A stretch of 29,741 nt of DNA, taken from positions 1 through 29,741 of the IMG/VR virus record IMGVR_UViG_3300044998_000182, one strand, 5' to 3'. The position numbers and the translations under genes were made by a program. Source of the stretch: a virus. The notes below the pieces were generated by a model, which saw nothing but the letters and a program-made list of their open reading frames with translations, did not search any database and was not told the DNA's origin. Each line of letters begins with the position of its first letter. The first letter of the stretch is position 1. Of this stretch, positions 23,918 to 29,741 are shown one piece after another.

Positions 23918-25510
23918 ATGGCCGTCAACATTCAGAATAAGCTGGGTTTTTGGATCAAGAACAACCTCAACGTGTTGTTTATCGGCAAGCACGGCGTCGG
24001 CAAGACCGCTATGGTCAAGCAAGCCTTCGATGAACACAACTTAAACTGGCGGTATTTCTCGGCGTCCACAATGGACCCTTGGGTTGACTTCGTTGGTGTC
24101 CCCAAGGAAAAGTCCGAAGGCAAATTCGGCTCCGACCAGTTTGAAGTTATTCGTGAACTTATCAACATCGACCAATCCCTTGCTTTGGAATGGATCGAAA
24201 AGAATTGGCACCTGAAAGGCGAATCTGCTCAAAAGGTAGTGCAGAGCGTCGAAAACCGTCGTCAATTCAACTATCTTGAGTTGGTTCGTCCTCGCACCTT
24301 TGCCACTGGCGAAGTCGAAGCGTTATTCTTTGACGAATTCAACCGTAGCCCGAAGAAGGTTCGCAATGCCGTGATGGAATTGCTGCAATTCAAATCCATC
24401 AACGGCGAGAAATTCCCGAATCTCAAGATCGTTTGGGCGGCGATCAACCCCGACGACGACGAAGATGAAACCTACGACGTGGAAAAGTTGGACCCTGCTC
24501 AGCAGGACCGCTACCACGTTATTACGACCATCCCTTATTTGCCGAATACCGAGTGGTTCCGGCAGAAATTTGGTCGTCGCTTGGCCGATTCCGCCATCGG
24601 TTGGTGGAAGGAATTGACCCCCGAAATGCAGAATGTCGTCTCGCCCCGGCGTCTCGAATACGCCCTGAATATGTTCCAATTACACGGAGATATTCGGGAT
24701 GTTATTCCGCATGAGGCTGGCGTCAGCAAGTTGGCGAACGCCCTCAATACCGGGCCGACTTCCGACCGGCTTTCGGAATTGATGGAAGCCAACGACGTTG
24801 CCGGGGCACGGACATTCCTTTCCAACGAGAATAACTTCGCCGCAGCGATGAAGTTCATTCCAGAGTCGGATACTCTGATGAATTTCTTCCTGCCGCTTAT
24901 CTCGAAGGAAAAGATTGCTTCCTCGATGGCGGATAATGCCAAAATTCGCAAGCATATCATCACGAATTCGGACAAAATTCCGGTATTCATGAATGTTTGT
25001 GACGAAATTCTCAAGGCTGGCACCGACCAGAAAACGGGACGAGAAATTCGCAAAGTTCTTCAACAGAACCAAGAGTTGGCTCGTGCCTTCGCCACCAAAA
25101 GCAGCGGCGGCGACAGTGAAGTAGCAGAAGCACACTACACTGGCGAGTCCGCAGCGGCATTCACCGGCATCCTGACGCAACTACGCCGATTGGATGCCAA
25201 TACTCCGCAACTGCAACAGTCGGCGTATGAGAAGATCGAGAAGAGCCTTCCGAAAGACATGACGGCAGACCAAGCATTGAATGCTCTGGAAGTGCTTAGT
25301 GCATTGGTGGGCAAGATGTGGCCCGCATCGTTGACAAGCCCGCCGTTTGCCAAGCTGCCGGGCGTGGTCAACCACTGCATCAAGGAAATCCATCGGAACA
25401 CCGGCCACAACTGGTCGATGATTCTGAGTCGGCACGGTGGGCGATTTGTGGCCCTTATGACTAAGCTGAATGAGGCTGGCTTGAGCCACAAACTCGTGCA
25501 ACCCAAGTGA
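23918..25510 (+). CDS. MoxR-type AAA+ ATPase (530 aa)
   Basis: MoxR ATPases remodel or load partner proteins, usually VWA-domain proteins, using ATP. Visible motifs: Walker A G23-K-H-G-V-G-K29-T30, Walker B LFFDE (136-140), sensor-1 Asn177 in AAINPDD, and a probable arginine finger R198 (QQDRYHV). Between Walker A and B is a longer helical insert than usual. The remaining ~300 residues are helical, without an obvious known domain. The next gene encodes a metallopeptidase-like/VWA protein, the classic partner, seven bases away. The ribosome binding site CGGAG precedes the ATG. Substrate unknown. Confidence 0.92.
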   Translation: MAVNIQNKLGFWIKNNLNVLFIGKHGVGKTAMVKQAFDEHNLNWRYFSASTMDPWVDFVGVPKEKSEGKFGSDQFEVIRELINIDQSLALEWIEKNWHLKGESAQKVVQSVENRRQFNYLELVRPRTFATGEVEALFFDEFNRSPKKVRNAVMELLQFKSINGEKFPNLKIVWAAINPDDDEDETYDVEKLDPAQQDRYHVITTIPYLPNTEWFRQKFGRRLADSAIGWWKELTPEMQNVVSPRRLEYALNMFQLHGDIRDVIPHEAGVSKLANALNTGPTSDRLSELMEANDVAGARTFLSNENNFAAAMKFIPESDTLMNFFLPLISKEKIASSMADNAKIRKHIITNSDKIPVFMNVCDEILKAGTDQKTGREIRKVLQQNQELARAFATKSSGGDSEVAEAHYTGESAAAFTGILTQLRRLDANTPQLQQSAYEKIEKSLPKDMTADQALNALEVLSALVGKMWPASLTSPPFAKLPGVVNHCIKEIHRNTGHNWSMILSRHGGRFVALMTKLNEAGLSHKLVQPK

Positions 25511-25517
25511 GGAAACA

Positions 25518-26915
25518 ATGGCCGACTTCATGAAAACTATGGCCCTGCCTCGAATCACCAACGATGAATGGTTGGAGATTTCGATGGCCCTTGAAGGGCA
25601 CCACGCAGTCTTCTACAAGCTATGGCAGATGGGCAAGCCCGTATTCAACGAGGATTTGCCCACCGCTGCTGTACAGTTTGATGAAGTGGGGGAATTTGTT
25701 TACTTCCACTTCAATCCGACATTCTGGCAGCGTTTGGACTTTAATGGCAAGTTATTCGTAATTTGCCACGAAGCACTGCACGTTATTTTGAATCACGGCA
25801 TCCGTATTCGTGATGCCGGTATCAATCGGCGTGCAGCCAATTCTGCTTTGGATATTGTTGTCAATCATAATCTGGTGCGGGGCTTTGGCTTCGACCGGAA
25901 GAAAATTGACGATGTTATCAAGCCCATTTTCAAACAAATGGCTATTGACGAGGGCAAGCCGTGGGGACCGGAACAAGAGGCTAACGGCGGTCTTTGCTGG
26001 GTGGATACTGTCTTTAAGGACAAGAAACCCATGCCCAAAGACGACGAAATGTTCGAGCATTACTACAACCTATTCGAGAAGATGTACGGCGATGGTGGAC
26101 CCGGTGACGGGGAAGCTGGCCCCGGTCAACCGGGTGGTTCGCTTGACGATCACTCGATGATGGGCGAGGAACAGTCCGACGCTTGGGGCAAAGTCATTGA
26201 CAATTTGTCCAAGGAATTGACTGAGGATGAAAAGAAACCCCTCAAGTCGATGGTGGACAAGCATTTTCAGAATCCGCCCAAGGATGCAAAAAACCAGCAG
26301 GCCGGAACCGGCACTGGTGGTCAGTGGGTCTTTGCCAAAATCGGCAAGGTCGTAAAGAAAAAGAAGTGGGAAACCGTCATCAAGAAATGGGCGAGCAAAT
26401 ATCTTGTTGAAAAAGACAAGGATATTGAGCAATGGGCACGAGTCCAGCGCCGGTTGACGTTCCTGCCTCGTGATATGTTCTTACCTTCCGATATGGAAGT
26501 CGAAGAACATGAAAATGAAAAGAAAAAGATCAAGGTGTTTTTCTTCCTTGATACTTCGGGTTCATGTTGGGGACTCAAGGATCGGTTTTTCACCGCCGCC
26601 GAGAGTCTTCCCACGGAACGATTCGATGTTCGCCTGTTCTGCTTCGATACGGTCGTCAAGGAAACCACCTTGGCGTCCAAGAAAATTTATGGTGGTGGTG
26701 GCACTAGCTTTTCCATCTTGGAGAAGCATGTTCAGGCCGTCATGAATCAGGAAAACTGCAAATATCCCGAAGCGGTATTTGTGATTACTGACGGATACGG
26801 TGATTCGATTCGTCCGCAAGACCCGTCGAAATGGTATTGGTTTATTACTCAGGGCGGAACCAAAAACTATATCGACAAAGATTGCAATTTCTTCCGCCTT
26901 GAAGATTACGAATAA
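25518..26915 (+). CDS. Metallopeptidase-like plus VWA protein (DUF2201-like), MoxR partner
   Basis: Residues 80-95 carry H84-E85-x2-H88-x4-H93, a zinc metallopeptidase signature in a hydrophobic helix. A Gly/Pro/Asp-rich linker (190-210) leads to a VWA-like domain with a MIDAS motif, FLDTSGS (343-349), a later conserved Thr (GGGGTSF, about 396) and an Asp (ITDGYGD). Proteins with this two-part layout (DUF2201-like) often neighbour MoxR ATPases. The complex may cut or remodel a target protein. The start has GAGGAAA upstream. Whether the peptidase site is active cannot be seen. Confidence 0.9.
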   Translation: MADFMKTMALPRITNDEWLEISMALEGHHAVFYKLWQMGKPVFNEDLPTAAVQFDEVGEFVYFHFNPTFWQRLDFNGKLFVICHEALHVILNHGIRIRDAGINRRAANSALDIVVNHNLVRGFGFDRKKIDDVIKPIFKQMAIDEGKPWGPEQEANGGLCWVDTVFKDKKPMPKDDEMFEHYYNLFEKMYGDGGPGDGEAGPGQPGGSLDDHSMMGEEQSDAWGKVIDNLSKELTEDEKKPLKSMVDKHFQNPPKDAKNQQAGTGTGGQWVFAKIGKVVKKKKWETVIKKWASKYLVEKDKDIEQWARVQRRLTFLPRDMFLPSDMEVEEHENEKKKIKVFFFLDTSGSCWGLKDRFFTAAESLPTERFDVRLFCFDTVVKETTLASKKIYGGGGTSFSILEKHVQAVMNQENCKYPEAVFVITDGYGDSIRPQDPSKWYWFITQGGTKNYIDKDCNFFRLEDYE

Positions 26916-26929
26916 ATACGGGAGTGGTC

Positions 26930-28006
26930 ATGGACTTCACGTTCTTGGATCACAAAGAGAATATTCCCGTACTGACATGGCTCGGCAGAAAAGAGTGGAT
27001 TGTTTACAAAGCACTCTCGGAACGCCGGGCCATTTCAGTACGGCCTGTTAAATTCATGCTTGTCCCAAAGCACGGCGAAGCCGATGCATATAAGGCCAAG
27101 CACCCCGATGAACCCGTCATTGTCGTGGGGGAGAAAGAATTCAAAAGCCATCCCCCTGAATTCTGGCGGCAATTTAACAAAATTCTCGATGTACTCCAAA
27201 TAGACCCTATCGGGACTTTTTGGTATTACACCCTCAGCAAATCTTTGGCTGGTGGGCCGAAGCTATTTCGCCCGCTTCCAGAGCAATGTGAGGCATTGCA
27301 GCATTCGTCTGCTTCGTATTCATTTGATGATTACAAGCAACCATATCCCGTCATTATTCTGGAAATCCCACCAGAATACGGGAACACTCTCAAACAGGAA
27401 TACAACATTCCTGATACACCAAAATTTGTTTTGGTACATCATGACGATCAAAAGAAATTCATCAACGTCAGTGCCTTCTTCAACCGAAGTAACGTGATTA
27501 CTCACGTCACACCCCGGCGAGAAGAATTTAAAACTATTGAAGATGCCATCATCGGCAACCGGCCCAATCGCAACGAGGGGTTAGTGAATTTGGCTGATGC
27601 CGAATGCAATGCTGCTGAAAACGTACAGAGGCTTGGTGTAAATTTCGCCATGATGATGAGCCTGTATTCCGTCAAGGATTATGGGCCACTCGATCCACAA
27701 AAGTATAAACAATGGCAACAGGAAGCACGGGCTAAGCGTCGTGGCAATATTCCAACACGGCGGGCGATGGAAGCACAAGCAAACCTTGCCGCCTCTGTCA
27801 ATCTTTTGAAATTCGATCAAAAGGTCGAGTTTTATGATGAAGTCGTGGAGAATGTACCCGAAGGCGAAGCTGTAGAAATGGATTTGCTCAAGAAATGGAT
27901 TTGCTCAAGAAATCGCCACGTTCCCACTGGCGGCGGGGGCATTTTGCCAACCAGCCCTATGGACCGGGCCTTCGGGAGCGAAAGATCATTTTCCGCAAAC
28001 CCGTAA
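26930..28006 (+). CDS. N-terminal part of a split protein (358 aa as read)
   Basis: No family named. The sequence begins MDFTFLDHKENIP, is mixed alpha/beta, and has a hydrophobic strand YPVIILEIPPEYG (about 139-151) and a FVLVHHDD segment. The last ~35 residues after DLLKK are probably read out of frame: a 17-bp tandem duplication at 27875-27908 moves the reading frame. With one copy, the frame continues into the HWRRGH segment of the next feature (441 residues in all). The start at 26930 has GGGAG five bases upstream and is preferred to GTG 26924. Confidence 0.65.
   Translation: MDFTFLDHKENIPVLTWLGRKEWIVYKALSERRAISVRPVKFMLVPKHGEADAYKAKHPDEPVIVVGEKEFKSHPPEFWRQFNKILDVLQIDPIGTFWYYTLSKSLAGGPKLFRPLPEQCEALQHSSASYSFDDYKQPYPVIILEIPPEYGNTLKQEYNIPDTPKFVLVHHDDQKKFINVSAFFNRSNVITHVTPRREEFKTIEDAIIGNRPNRNEGLVNLADAECNAAENVQRLGVNFAMMMSLYSVKDYGPLDPQKYKQWQQEARAKRRGNIPTRRAMEAQANLAASVNLLKFDQKVEFYDEVVENVPEGEAVEMDLLKKWICSRNRHVPTGGGGILPTSPMDRAFGSERSFSANP
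27875..27908 (+). repeat. Perfect 17-bp tandem duplication that breaks a gene
   Basis: Two adjacent copies of a 17-base unit (27875-27891 and 27892-27908). With one copy, the upstream frame (ending DLLKK) joins the downstream frame (SPRSHWRRGH). The tract begins a third copy for five bases (GAAAT). Confidence 0.93.
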
Positions 28007-28272
28007 TGGTTCGTGCTGGCGCATTCTTCGGTGACGTAAAAAATACGAGCGTCACTTATACTGCCCATGCAGCAAGAAAACCACAAAATATTGGACCGAG
28101 GGTCGGCACGAAAATCAAAGTTATCAACGCTGACGAAGTACCAGCCGGTACGGTAGGAATTGTGCAGAAAGTAAAAGTTCTCAATACAATCCAACAAATC
28201 GAGGCGGTCACAGAGGCCGAAGAGAATTTCATTCTCATTTGCCCTCCTGATTCCTACGAGAATATCCAATGA
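27895..28272 (+). CDS. C-terminal part of the split protein with HWRRGH motif (125 aa)
   Basis: The segment SPRSHWRRGHFANQPYGPG (about residues 7-25) resembles the conserved C-terminal HWRRGH-type motif I recall from many uncharacterised phage and bacterial proteins. It therefore marks this frame as coding. It continues the upstream 358-residue frame if one copy of the 17-bp duplication is removed. ATG 27895 lies inside the second copy; ATG 28006, formed as TAATG with the upstream stop, would give an 88-residue product (MVRAGAFF...). Either could still be used. The end overlaps the ART-HD gene as ATGA. Function unknown. Confidence 0.6.
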   Translation: MDLLKKSPRSHWRRGHFANQPYGPGLRERKIIFRKPVMVRAGAFFGDVKNTSVTYTAHAARKPQNIGPRVGTKIKVINADEVPAGTVGIVQKVKVLNTIQQIEAVTEAEENFILICPPDSYENIQ

Positions 28273-29414
28273 ATATCGAATCTTTTGAAGAAGTCCTGAA
28301 ACGTCAAGAAGCCCTTGACCCGGAACTCAAGCCTTGGCTTGAGAAGGGTCGGGGTGCGCTTGGTTGGCCTACTCTCAAGCACCCACTTGTATTCGGCGTC
28401 CCATACATGGAAGCAATGAATGCCATGTATAACGCTCAACTAAAAGCCAAGAAAGAATATGCTGCCAAAGCGATGGAAGAGCAGAAATGGAGTAGTTATC
28501 TCTACATCCACGAACGTCCCTATCGCTTCCAGAAGTTTGTCGAAATTGAAAACCTAATGTCCGACAAGGATTATTGGGACAATTTGGGAAGCATCTGGTC
28601 AGATAGCGAAAATATCTGGCAATACAAGCATATCGTCGCCATGCTTCTATTGAGCAGCCGTGGCGATAAAGAACACTTTATGAATGATGAAGAACGGAAG
28701 TTCCTTGAGGGCTTGCCGGAAGAATTCATCATTTATCGAGGCCATCAGGGAATCAATCGAAGCGGGTATAGCTGGACGCTCAGTTATTGGCGTGCCCGTT
28801 GGTTCGCTCAACGATTCGATCACAAAAAGAACGGCGTCGTACAAGCCATTGTCAACAAAAAGGACATTATCGGCGTCCTTCTTGGGCGAGGGGAGTACGA
28901 AATCGTCACCCTGCCCAGCCGTCTCAAAATCGAACCCTGCCAGAAGGTTGCAAAGCGACCCGGTTGGATGGAATCGGTGTTGAAAGAGGCGTGGTCCCGA
29001 TTTTCTTTGGTTCGGGCGGGAAGTTTTCATGGACTTTGGCATTGGGAGAAGGTAGAAAAGAATGCAGTGTTCTTGGCGAACAACACACCGGGGGCCGACA
29101 AGACCGTGGCCCAACTGTTTGCTCTGGTCCACGATAGCAAGCGGCAAAACGAAGATGAAGACCCCGAACACGGGCATCGCTCTGCTAAATGGGCAGAAGA
29201 ACTATTCGAGGAAGGGCGACTCAAGATCAATCGGGATCAATTAAACAAATTGGTAGAGGCTTGCAAGTACCACAACGATGGCCAGACTAGCAACGACCCG
29301 ACGATTGGTGTATGTTGGGATGCTGACCGTCTGGACTTGCCACGAGTAGGCATCACTCCTGACCCGAAATATCTCTCTACTGAGGCCGGGAAGAAATTCC
29401 TTTGGAGGATTTAA
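28269..29414 (+). CDS. ADP-ribosyltransferase-like domain fused to HD hydrolase domain (381 aa)
   Basis: Two enzyme domains appear in one chain. Residues about 95-220 look like an ART fold: Y156-R157-G158 (the NAD-binding Arg), S168-W-T170, and RGEYE with E209 and E211 (catalytic Glu region), an R-S-E order. Residues about 250-381 look like a metal-dependent HD hydrolase: H254, H258, H288-D289, H301, H335 and D351 with D353 and D356, in a family pattern I recall (FALVHDSKR, CWDADRLDL, GITPDPKYL). T4 uses ADP-ribosyltransferases on host RNA polymerase, so host takeover is one idea. The substrates are unknown. The ATG overlaps the preceding gene's stop (ATGA). Confidence 0.8.
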   Translation: MNIESFEEVLKRQEALDPELKPWLEKGRGALGWPTLKHPLVFGVPYMEAMNAMYNAQLKAKKEYAAKAMEEQKWSSYLYIHERPYRFQKFVEIENLMSDKDYWDNLGSIWSDSENIWQYKHIVAMLLLSSRGDKEHFMNDEERKFLEGLPEEFIIYRGHQGINRSGYSWTLSYWRARWFAQRFDHKKNGVVQAIVNKKDIIGVLLGRGEYEIVTLPSRLKIEPCQKVAKRPGWMESVLKEAWSRFSLVRAGSFHGLWHWEKVEKNAVFLANNTPGADKTVAQLFALVHDSKRQNEDEDPEHGHRSAKWAEELFEEGRLKINRDQLNKLVEACKYHNDGQTSNDPTIGVCWDADRLDLPRVGITPDPKYLSTEAGKKFLWRI

Positions 29415-29725
29415 TGGACGAAACAATCAACATCGGTGGCGTCGATATAAAGGTCGCCTCTCAAGAGGAAATCAACAAAGAAGCAGACGCAGGCAATATG
29501 ATTTTTGCCTGTATGCCCACCAAATACGGCCCATCAGCGGTGCCGAATTCTCGAACGGTCCAGTGTGAGAAATGTAAACAAGATGTTTGGATTTCTCCCG
29601 CTACTTACTCAACGTGGCAATCGTGTGATGCGCCCATCATGTGCTTGGAATGCATCACAACGGAAGTGACCTACCCCGCCGCTAAAGACGGCGGGGCTTC
29701 CGTTCCAATCAGCAGCCCACTCTGA
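29414..29725 (+). CDS. Zinc-ribbon protein with altered C terminus (103 aa)
   Basis: Two Cys pairs (CEKC at about residues 54-57 and CLEC at about 79-82) with a WISPATYSTWQS loop form a probable zinc ribbon; the N-terminal ~50 residues are acidic. The start shares TAATG with the ART-HD stop and has a perfect GGAGG six bases upstream. The last ~17 residues (after EVTYPAA) are encoded by a GC-rich compound hairpin at 29659-29704, so the native C terminus was probably shorter or different. Possibly an accessory to the operon. Confidence 0.7.
   Translation: MDETINIGGVDIKVASQEEINKEADAGNMIFACMPTKYGPSAVPNSRTVQCEKCKQDVWISPATYSTWQSCDAPIMCLECITTEVTYPAAKDGGASVPISSPL
29659..29704. other. Compound hairpin resembling an IS200/IS605-type element end
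   Basis: Outer stem AACGGAAG (29659-29666) with CTTCCGTT (29697-29704), inner stem CCCCGCCG (29674-29681) with CGGCGGGG (29689-29696), both perfect 8 bp, with a seven-base bulge on one side and a seven-base loop. No T-tract follows. The layout recalls the subterminal hairpins of IS200/IS605 elements, and any transposase or TnpB would lie outside the window. Confidence 0.45.
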
Positions 29726-29741
29726 GCAGGTCTTACGCCAA

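Follow-up and report, generated by a model that had tools for sequence, protein, structure and literature searches.

A predicted ADP-ribosyltransferase joined to an HD phosphohydrolase domain recurs in phages and Bacillota plasmids

Introduction

What reaction might be carried out by a single phage protein in which an ADP-ribosyltransferase (ART) domain is followed by an HD hydrolase domain? The presumed targets of phage ARTs are host proteins, and the fate of the ADP-ribose mark is seldom known. The question is raised by an open reading frame (ORF) at positions 28269-29414 of IMG/VR virus record IMGVR_UViG_3300044998_000182, analyzed over its positions 1 to 29,741 (hereafter the window, 29,741 nucleotides). 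The ORF lies on the plus strand, starts with ATG, is unbroken and encodes 381 amino acids. An earlier, sequence-only reading of the window had described it as an ART-like domain fused to an HD hydrolase, and perhaps a self-contained modification module.

Judged from sequence, the ART-HD protein combines known enzyme families in a new way, and the combination is recurrent in phages and plasmids. Both domains, by sequence and by model, as well as their conserved residues and their repeated coupling, are directly supported. We tentatively favor, at slightly less than an even chance, the reading that the fusion is a bifunctional enzyme in which the ART makes or attaches ADP-ribose and the HD domain then splits its pyrophosphate, giving phosphoribose and adenosine monophosphate (AMP).

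Results

Domain organization and residue set of the fusion protein

Conservation was counted in four alignments: nine full-length fusion sequences, the window protein among them; 39 ART domains, consisting of that of the window and 38 others at 34-55% identity to it; an HD-domain alignment of 10 sequences; and a wider HD set of 62 domains. The protein and its parts are as follows.

28269..29414, plus strand: ART-HD fusion protein, 381 amino acids, stop codon included in the coordinates (ORF list; homologues with the same fusion)
28269..28943, plus strand: ART family region, residues 1-225 (PHROG 4776), a mostly helical N-terminal part and the ART core (profile match and model)
28683..28946, plus strand: ART core, residues 139-226 (structural matches to diphtheria toxin over 139-226 and cholera toxin A1 over 151-226)
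28737..28739, plus strand: R157, which opens the R-S-E set (38/39 ART domains; strand 152-160)
28770..28778, plus strand: S168-W169-T170 (S168 38/39, W169 38/39; at position 170, 32 domains have T and the other 7 have S)
28893..28901, plus strand: E209-x-E211 bi-glutamate motif (each 39/39)
28944..29411, plus strand: HD phosphohydrolase domain, residues 226-381 (2pq7: Z 17.5, E 3.4e-10)
29028..29042, plus strand: H254-x3-H258 motif (10/10 in the HD-domain alignment; each 60/62 in the wider HD set, 2 gaps)
29130..29135, plus strand: H288-D289, the HD dyad (each 61/62 in the wider HD set, 1 gap)
29169..29171, plus strand: H301 (60/62 in the wider HD set)
29271..29273, plus strand: H335 (59/62 in the wider HD set)
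29319..29336, plus strand: D351-A-D353-R-L-D356 motif (D351 61/62, D353 61/62 and D356 59/62 in the wider HD set)

The residues on which the sequence-only reading had relied (R157, S168-W-T170, E209 and E211, followed by H254, H258, H288-D289, H335, D351 and D356) were all found at those numbers and are conserved among homologues, and two further conserved HD residues, H301 and D353, had been missed. In the full-length fusions, R157, S168, both glutamates and the seven listed HD residues were each present in nine of nine sequences; position 170 was T in seven and S in two. When the window protein was shuffled 20,000 times, a loose ART pattern appeared 253 times, a loose HD pattern seven times and both in order not once, with patterns that were composed when the protein sequence was already known.

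The window protein had no match in Pfam, NCBIfam or PADLOC at E values up to 10, its ART and HD halves scanned separately had none in Pfam, and phmmer against PDB sequences returned a single chance-level ribosomal match and nothing else. Both domain assignments of ORF 28269-29414 are supported by the sequence comparisons and structural models described below.

The N-terminal region is a predicted ART of the R-S-E type

Two families of unnamed function cover this region, PHROG 4776 (residues 5-219, E 1.4e-64) and PHROG 25265 (residues 89-215, E 4.3e-12), and they were the only families to match it, with none of the curated ART models of Pfam or NCBIfam doing so. The profile of the 39 ART domains gave one chance-level match in the PDB (E 1.6). 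Residues 1-138 are mostly helical in the model and belong with the ART core to one family, PHROG 4776. The AlphaFold2 model of residues 1-226 alone had a mean predicted local distance difference test score (pLDDT) of 92.5. In this model, strand 152-160 holds R157 and strand 168-170 holds S168; E209 and E211 are at or just ahead of strand 211-214. Among the 39 ART domains, one homologue has Q in place of R157 and another has A in place of S168.

The match list of Foldseek for the ART model was re-scored with VIA-align. The top match was diphtheria toxin (Z 6.8, 86 residues, rmsd 3.0), and further ART matches were KptA/Tpt1 (6.4), Rhs Tre toxins (5.3), Tse6 (5.1), ParT (4.5) and cholera toxin A1 (4.2). 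Judged by title or known identity, rows 1-21 were all ART enzymes (Z 6.8-5.1, 74-86 residues aligned), and the 50 rows listed comprised 39 ART enzymes, six other proteins and five of unsure kind. Since no Z reached 8, the fold assignment depends on the agreement of many ART matches with the motif. The ART-like domain proposed earlier is borne out by motif residues that lie on core strands and by structural matches, modest in Z, that are mostly to ART enzymes; its extent had been given as residues 95-220, and the matches put the core at about 139-226 instead. Identity with KptA/Tpt1, an ART of the H-H-h type, was considered and rejected: KptA ranks high, but the conserved residues are R-S-ExE, and Z gaps below 1 are ties.

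In the cholera and heat-labile toxin rows, the aligned parts start with model residue 151 at chain residue 1 or with model residue 154 at chain residue 4. R157 would then stand opposite toxin residue 7, provided that no gap lies between, and residue 7 is presumably the arginine that contacts nicotinamide adenine dinucleotide (NAD) in both toxins. An ExE bi-glutamate generally accompanies arginine targets. The sequence and the model support assignment of the N-terminal region as an ART of the R-S-E type with predicted NAD+ transfer activity.

The C-terminal domain resembles a metal-dependent phosphohydrolase

In the full-length model, residues 226-381 matched 2pq7 with Z 17.5 (147 residues aligned, rmsd 2.9, 23% identity), and YpgQ (Z 12.8) and 3b57 (Z 12.4) were also found. 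Phosphodiesterase (PDE) domains of the SidE family gave Z values of 12.5 (SdeD), 12.2 (DupA), 12.0 (SdeC) and 10.9 (lpg1496), with all such rows between 10.3 and 12.5; SAMHD1, PDE10 and HD-GYP came next with Z near 10. At the profile level, the HD-domain alignment matched the solved structures 2pq7 (E 3.4e-10) and YpgQ (5dqv/5dqw, E 0.002), and the alignment with 2pq7 brought HxxxH, HD and DADRLD into register. The HD hydrolase named in the sequence-only reading is matched by profile as well as by fold. With a complete HD ligand set and these matches, the C-terminal domain looks like a working metal-dependent phosphohydrolase. The structure 2pq7, YpgQ and the stand-alone HD proteins of Vibrio phage D69 and Roseobacter phages CRP-901/902 have the fold and HD ligands in common with it and, unlike the window protein, have no ART fused.

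The full-length model had a pLDDT of 83.4 and a predicted template modeling score (pTM) of 0.60. Against the predicted viral structures of BFVD, its best match was a protein of Gordonia phage Octobien14 (E 8.9e-16), followed by smaller unnamed proteins; the Octobien14 gene matches the ART part by tblastn.

The same fusion occurs in other viral genomes

When IMG/VR was scanned with the ART profile, 192 loci were confirmed, and the 80 best of them were retained for analysis. ART and HD were found in one frame in 14 of these 80 and ART alone in the rest. At three of the 14 loci the protein is identical to that of the window, and the others are 48-55% identical to it in the ART part. The fusion, which the earlier reading knew from no phage protein, was found in these 14 loci and in one contig of a metagenome-assembled genome (MAG), and a divergent fusion was found in Bacillota plasmids.

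The MAG contig, labeled Neisseriaceae, has the same fusion at 45% identity with the same AAA and DUF2201/VWA-like neighbors as the window, and because these neighbors are shared it may be phage DNA. In the phylum of this MAG, the full-length fusion alignment matched 4 of 398 genomes (one fusion, which is the MAG itself, two HD-only and one ART-only); in its class, the HD profile matched 12 of 369 genomes, some of them remote, and in the MAG alone was HD fused to this ART. A 146 kb contig (L011/L143) carries a fusion homologue split over several frames (L011:5811-7076), a broken or mis-assembled copy.

Stand-alone PHROG 4776 proteins, known from mycobacteriophages such as Krypton555 and from IMG/VR phages, are alike over the whole N-terminal region and have the R-S-ExE set, with approximately 34-42% identity between the window protein and the mycobacteriophage proteins. 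In the 66 ART-only loci, unlike the window fusion, they come with no HD domain. At one of these 66 loci (L105:2810-5914), the ART sits midway along an open frame of 1035 amino acids, perhaps a polyvalent phage protein.

A second fusion lineage is present in Bacillota plasmids

When plasmids were searched by tblastn, a Pontibacillus plasmid gave a 25% match over parts of both domains. Its protein of 460 amino acids (P0002) matched PHROG 4776 (E 1.9e-11) and the Pfam HD family PF01966 (E 1.4e-9), the latter having no match in the window protein, and aligned with the window family across both domains over 305 columns (E 7e-13). A tblastn search with P0002 found matches in 25 plasmid records. Seven coding sequences over both domains were taken from large plasmids of Pontibacillus, Aneurinibacillus, Jeotgalibacillus, Brevibacillus, two Paenibacillus and Alkaliphilus, and the R, S-W-T, ExE, HxxxH, HD, later H-G, H, DxD and D motifs were each present in seven of seven. 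The ART profile of the phage clade found all seven and its HD profile three; three of the four that were missed are annotated as HD domain-containing.

In quick IQ-TREE runs of the ART and HD domains, with several long branches, the two fusion groups stood apart, each amid stand-alone proteins of its own kind. The approximately unbiased test rejected a single clade of all fusions in both trees (ART, p 0.0008; HD, p 0.0006). In the HD tree, a stand-alone Peptoclostridium HD protein sits within the Bacillota fusion group. Two separate fusion events would be the simplest reading of these sequences, and a single early fusion with several later splits is a history that the trees still allow.

In three Paenibacillaceae plasmids (L117:3854-7464, L118:3859-7458 and L119:3695-7350), the ART-HD gene is divergent from ligA, which encodes NAD-dependent DNA ligase. 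A Variovorax HD protein of 511 amino acids (P0006) was considered as a third ART-HD fusion and was not counted: comparison with the ART alignment gave a probability of 1.0% (E 0.057, 17 columns), and its N-terminal part, ART-like by eye, had no Pfam match and a ParB C-terminal match in PHROGs. In the Variovorax plasmids (L129:2960-4492 and L226:2337-3968) the protein is longer, with HD near the C-terminal end, and the ParB C-terminal match in L129 is to PHROG 2579.

Adjacent ART and HD genes and NAD-linked neighbors

One virus (L148) has a PHROG 4776 gene (E 4.5e-12; motifs YRG, SWS and EYE) followed by an HD gene, with an ATGA stop/start overlap, and the two are probably translationally coupled. 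In the HD tree, this virus falls into a 15-row group with the phage fusions (SH-aLRT, a likelihood-ratio branch support, 91). ART and HD are therefore linked in three settings, being fused in two groups and adjacent in the third.

Sir2 was found beside the stand-alone HD gene in three of the seven plasmid regions read, in two of them together with NAD-salvage genes. The Paenibacillus sp. 37 plasmid (L126:1065-5608) has the order Sir2, Sir2, HD, nicotinate phosphoribosyltransferase and isochorismatase-family hydrolase, and its HD protein groups with the Bacillota fusions in the HD tree. The Mesobacillus foraminis plasmid (L222:2117-7167) has the same order plus one small gene, and an HD protein 77% identical to that of Paenibacillus. 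By gene content, the Sir2-Sir2-HD-salvage set looks like an NAD cycle. In an Aliarcobacter plasmid, the Sir2 gene is directly ahead of HD. When 139 of the 140 chosen neighbor proteins of HD loci were compared with Pfam, SIR2 had two members among the 25 families listed of the 71 that matched; loci L113, L148, L153, L168 and L171 and near-copies were excluded from this survey.

Proposed mechanism

In a first step, the R-S-ExE ART, for which fold and residues are supported, would use NAD+ to ADP-ribosylate a target, for which the ExE motif makes an arginine side chain the likeliest. In a second step, the metal-dependent HD domain would cleave the pyrophosphate, so that AMP is released and 5-phosphoribose stays on the target; in a variant of this step, free ADP-ribose from the ART would be converted to AMP and ribose 5-phosphate. 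Either the target would then carry an altered mark, one that host enzymes may have difficulty removing, or ADP-ribose would be disposed of. HD enzymes cleave phosphate esters and anhydrides, and there is a pyrophosphate in the ADP-ribose that an ART makes or attaches. The second step is proposed because the ART-HD pairing recurs, because of this HD chemistry and because of the SidE precedent. The adjacent ART and HD genes of L148 speak for it as well, and so do the Sir2 and NAD-salvage neighbors that link the HD family to NAD. The recurrence of the pairing also strengthens, at the level of sequence, the earlier idea of a self-contained modification module.

In the SidE proteins of Legionella, as described in passages of PMC10143409 and PMC6941232, a mono-ADP-ribosyltransferase (mART) ADP-ribosylates ubiquitin and an HD-like PDE cuts the product to phosphoribosyl-ubiquitin and AMP. 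SidE and the window fusion both hold an ART and an HD-type domain in one protein, and the same NAD+-dependent two-step logic would fit. The order in SidE is deubiquitinase (DUB), PDE, mART and C-terminal domain (CTD) according to a passage of PMC10143409, whereas in the window protein ART precedes HD, and 381 amino acids leave no room for a DUB or CTD. The SidE PDE uses an H-E-H triad with a histidine intermediate, and its substrate is ubiquitin. We do not propose direct kinship with SidE, given the reversed domain order and PDE fold scores tied with those of ordinary HD proteins.

T4 Alt, ModA, ModB and other R-S-E phage ARTs resemble the present case in the R-S-E set and the contractile-tailed phage; to our knowledge, none has an HD domain, and the window protein matched no named ART family in Pfam, PHROG or NCBIfam. 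The ARG-centered host systems described in part of PMC9503650 resemble the window in that an ADP-ribose enzyme is coupled to both an HD phosphatase and a vWA chaperone. In that part of the source they contain a remover (ARG) and no coupled ART or sirtuin, whereas in the window a presumed writer is fused to HD. No ART-HD fusion was seen in the portions of the literature searched, including PMC9503650, PMC7824862 and PMC5512222, which does not by itself establish absence from print.

The recurrent pairing of a writer with a phosphohydrolase predicts a measurable product, a phosphoribosyl adduct together with AMP, and suggests what two unnamed families, PHROG 4776 and the stand-alone phage and plasmid HD family, might do. 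It is conceivable, although we think it unlikely, that phages and Bacillota plasmids each built, apart from SidE, a one-protein phosphoribosylation machine in which arginine ADP-ribose is trimmed to phosphoribose or the phosphoribosyl group is handed to a second protein. We know of no other such machine aimed at prokaryotic proteins, of which this would be the first. If true, phosphoribosylation would be a reaction reached more than once and not peculiar to one pathogen.

Several points weigh against a bifunctional enzyme of this kind. Both activities are inferred, as are the arginine target, the HD substrate and which step comes first. Foldseek found nothing in the PDB for the ART model at E <= 0.001, every ART Z in VIA-align was below 8, and the top-ranked folds were of the H-Y-E (diphtheria toxin) and KptA/Tpt1 types rather than R-S-E enzymes, with cholera toxin at 4.2. 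With its pTM of 0.60, the full-length model does not fix the relative orientation of the two active sites. The SidE-type PDE scores of 10.3-12.5 are no better than those of YpgQ and 3b57 and are far under that of 2pq7. Most relatives of either domain stand alone: 66 of the 80 kept ART loci had no HD in them, and the 80 kept viral HD loci comprised 14 fusions, one broken copy and 65 HD-only loci, with an ART of the PHROG 4776 family nearby in one of the 65. In many IMG/VR HD-only loci, the sizes of the downstream genes equal those of the CRP-902 terminase genes, so HD may act on a general nucleotide substrate. The stand-alone HD plasmid regions of Peptoclostridium, Photobacterium, Magnetospirillum and Alteromonas, four of the seven read, had no annotated Sir2, ART or NAD-salvage gene.

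In Roseobacter phage CRP-902 itself (L026:3-464), an unannotated HD gene was noted immediately ahead of the gene for the terminase small subunit.

Alternative explanations

T4 Alt and ModA are ARTs that modify host protein. It is possible, and for us a serious minority view, that two independent host-takeover activities were joined for co-expression or co-delivery, the ART modifying a host protein and the HD domain hydrolyzing an unrelated nucleotide such as a deoxynucleoside triphosphate, an alarmone or a defense signal. The solved relative YpgQ (fold Z 12.8, profile E 0.002), which we take to be a nucleotide pyrophosphohydrolase, agrees with this, as do the common stand-alone phage HD relatives with no PHROG 4776 ART nearby and the family ART inside the 1035 amino acid frame of L105. 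The joining of unrelated effectors in polyvalent phage proteins has precedent, as a passage of PMC5512222 describes. Chance joining would fit poorly with the occurrence of the same two families in the same order in two tree-separated lineages, with their adjacency in L148, and with the HD family beside Sir2 in three plasmids.

Alternatively, the HD domain could act as a brake, a cis-acting antidote that limits the ART by destroying NAD+ or ADP-ribose or by trimming the mark; we consider this distinctly unlikely. A fusion would fix a 1:1 ratio, and ADP-ribosylating enzymes are often paired with a remover, such as DraT with DraG, or DarT with a macro or NADAR domain (PMC9503650, in part). The removers named in that portion of the source are macro, ARG and NADAR domains and not HD, and the large majority of kept ART loci (66/80) do without HD. 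More doubtful still is the handling of defense signals, in which HD would degrade host NAD-derived messengers while the ART modifies a defense protein. Phage domains that target ADP-ribose have been proposed, in part of PMC9503650, to counter soluble ADP-ribose derivatives, and three plasmids have an HD relative next to Sir2, but the scanned window genes gave no defense family name and the neighbors are AAA, DUF2201 and tail genes.

That the ART domain is catalytically dead or a non-NAD binding module, to which the best Z of 6.8, the lack of a Foldseek match at E <= 0.001 or of a Pfam ART model, and the Q at R157 and A at S168 in one of 39 homologues each would point, is very improbable, given that R157 and S168 are kept in 38 and E209 and E211 in 39 of 39 divergent homologues, that the R-S-ExE set is present in seven of seven Bacillota fusions and that ART enzymes, judged by title or known identity, fill the 21 best VIA-align rows.

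Genomic setting of the fusion gene

The window encodes a tail sheath protein, a T4 gp15-type sheath stabilizer and a T4-type baseplate protein, which indicates a contractile-tailed, T4-like phage. Three genes precede the fusion gene.

23918..25510, plus strand: AAA ATPase gene, upstream neighbor (phrog_1297 ATPase; PF00004 slightly under its cut-off)
25518..26915, plus strand: gene with a DUF2201_N putative metallopeptidase domain (Pfam)
26924..28272, plus strand: upstream gene with no assigned function, in two overlapping frames, 26924-28006 and 27895-28272 (ORF list)

The AAA ATPase is probably MoxR-type, and the C-terminal part of the 25518-26915 protein is VWA-like by eye, with no Pfam VWA match. 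The pair resembles the MoxR AAA and metallopeptidase-vWA pair of group 2.2 jumbo phages, and the passages of PMC7824862 on that pair mention no ART-HD protein beside the MoxR/vWA genes.

Homologues of the three upstream proteins were counted with phmmer (E 1e-5) in the flanks of 14 fusion loci, a number that here counts the MAG contig as well as near-copies and one locus with a broken copy. The AAA protein was found in 9/14, the DUF2201/VWA-like protein in 10/14 and the third protein in 11/14; none of the three was found in 68 HD-only or 66 ART-only loci. A role of MoxR-vWA as a general HD partner was rejected, with no AAA or DUF2201/VWA-like homologue in either group of loci, and this neighborhood is taken, from gene content, as a trait of the window's own fusion clade only. 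Within that clade, the MoxR-vWA-like pair was absent from the flanks of two fusion loci (L141 and L142). No defense family name was obtained among the scanned window genes, PADLOC having been applied to the fusion protein only.

Some minor observations were made on these neighbors. PHROG 1314 is named HNH endonuclease yet matches the 25518-26915 protein with its DUF2201_N and VWA-like parts, so the PHROG name is doubtful. Two HD loci, L150:3095-5384 and L167:3155-5447, have a gene that matches VWA weakly (E 1e-4 and 0.0092, respectively, under the Pfam cut-off) and runs up to or into the beginning of the HD gene, and ahead of the VWA-like gene lies a gene of approximately 350 amino acids with weak PHROG matches (phrog_459 and phrog_1576). 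In the near-identical contig L003, the upstream gene that is split in the window is a single frame of 451 amino acids, a real frame difference or an assembly error. In the region of window 29580-29741 and L003:7306-9525, L003 is, by blastn, without approximately 86 bases that are present in the window after the fusion gene, and the window ends 76 bases into the part common to both. L003 continues into ORFs that resemble, by eye, TnpB (426 amino acids, minus strand) and TnpA (134 amino acids).

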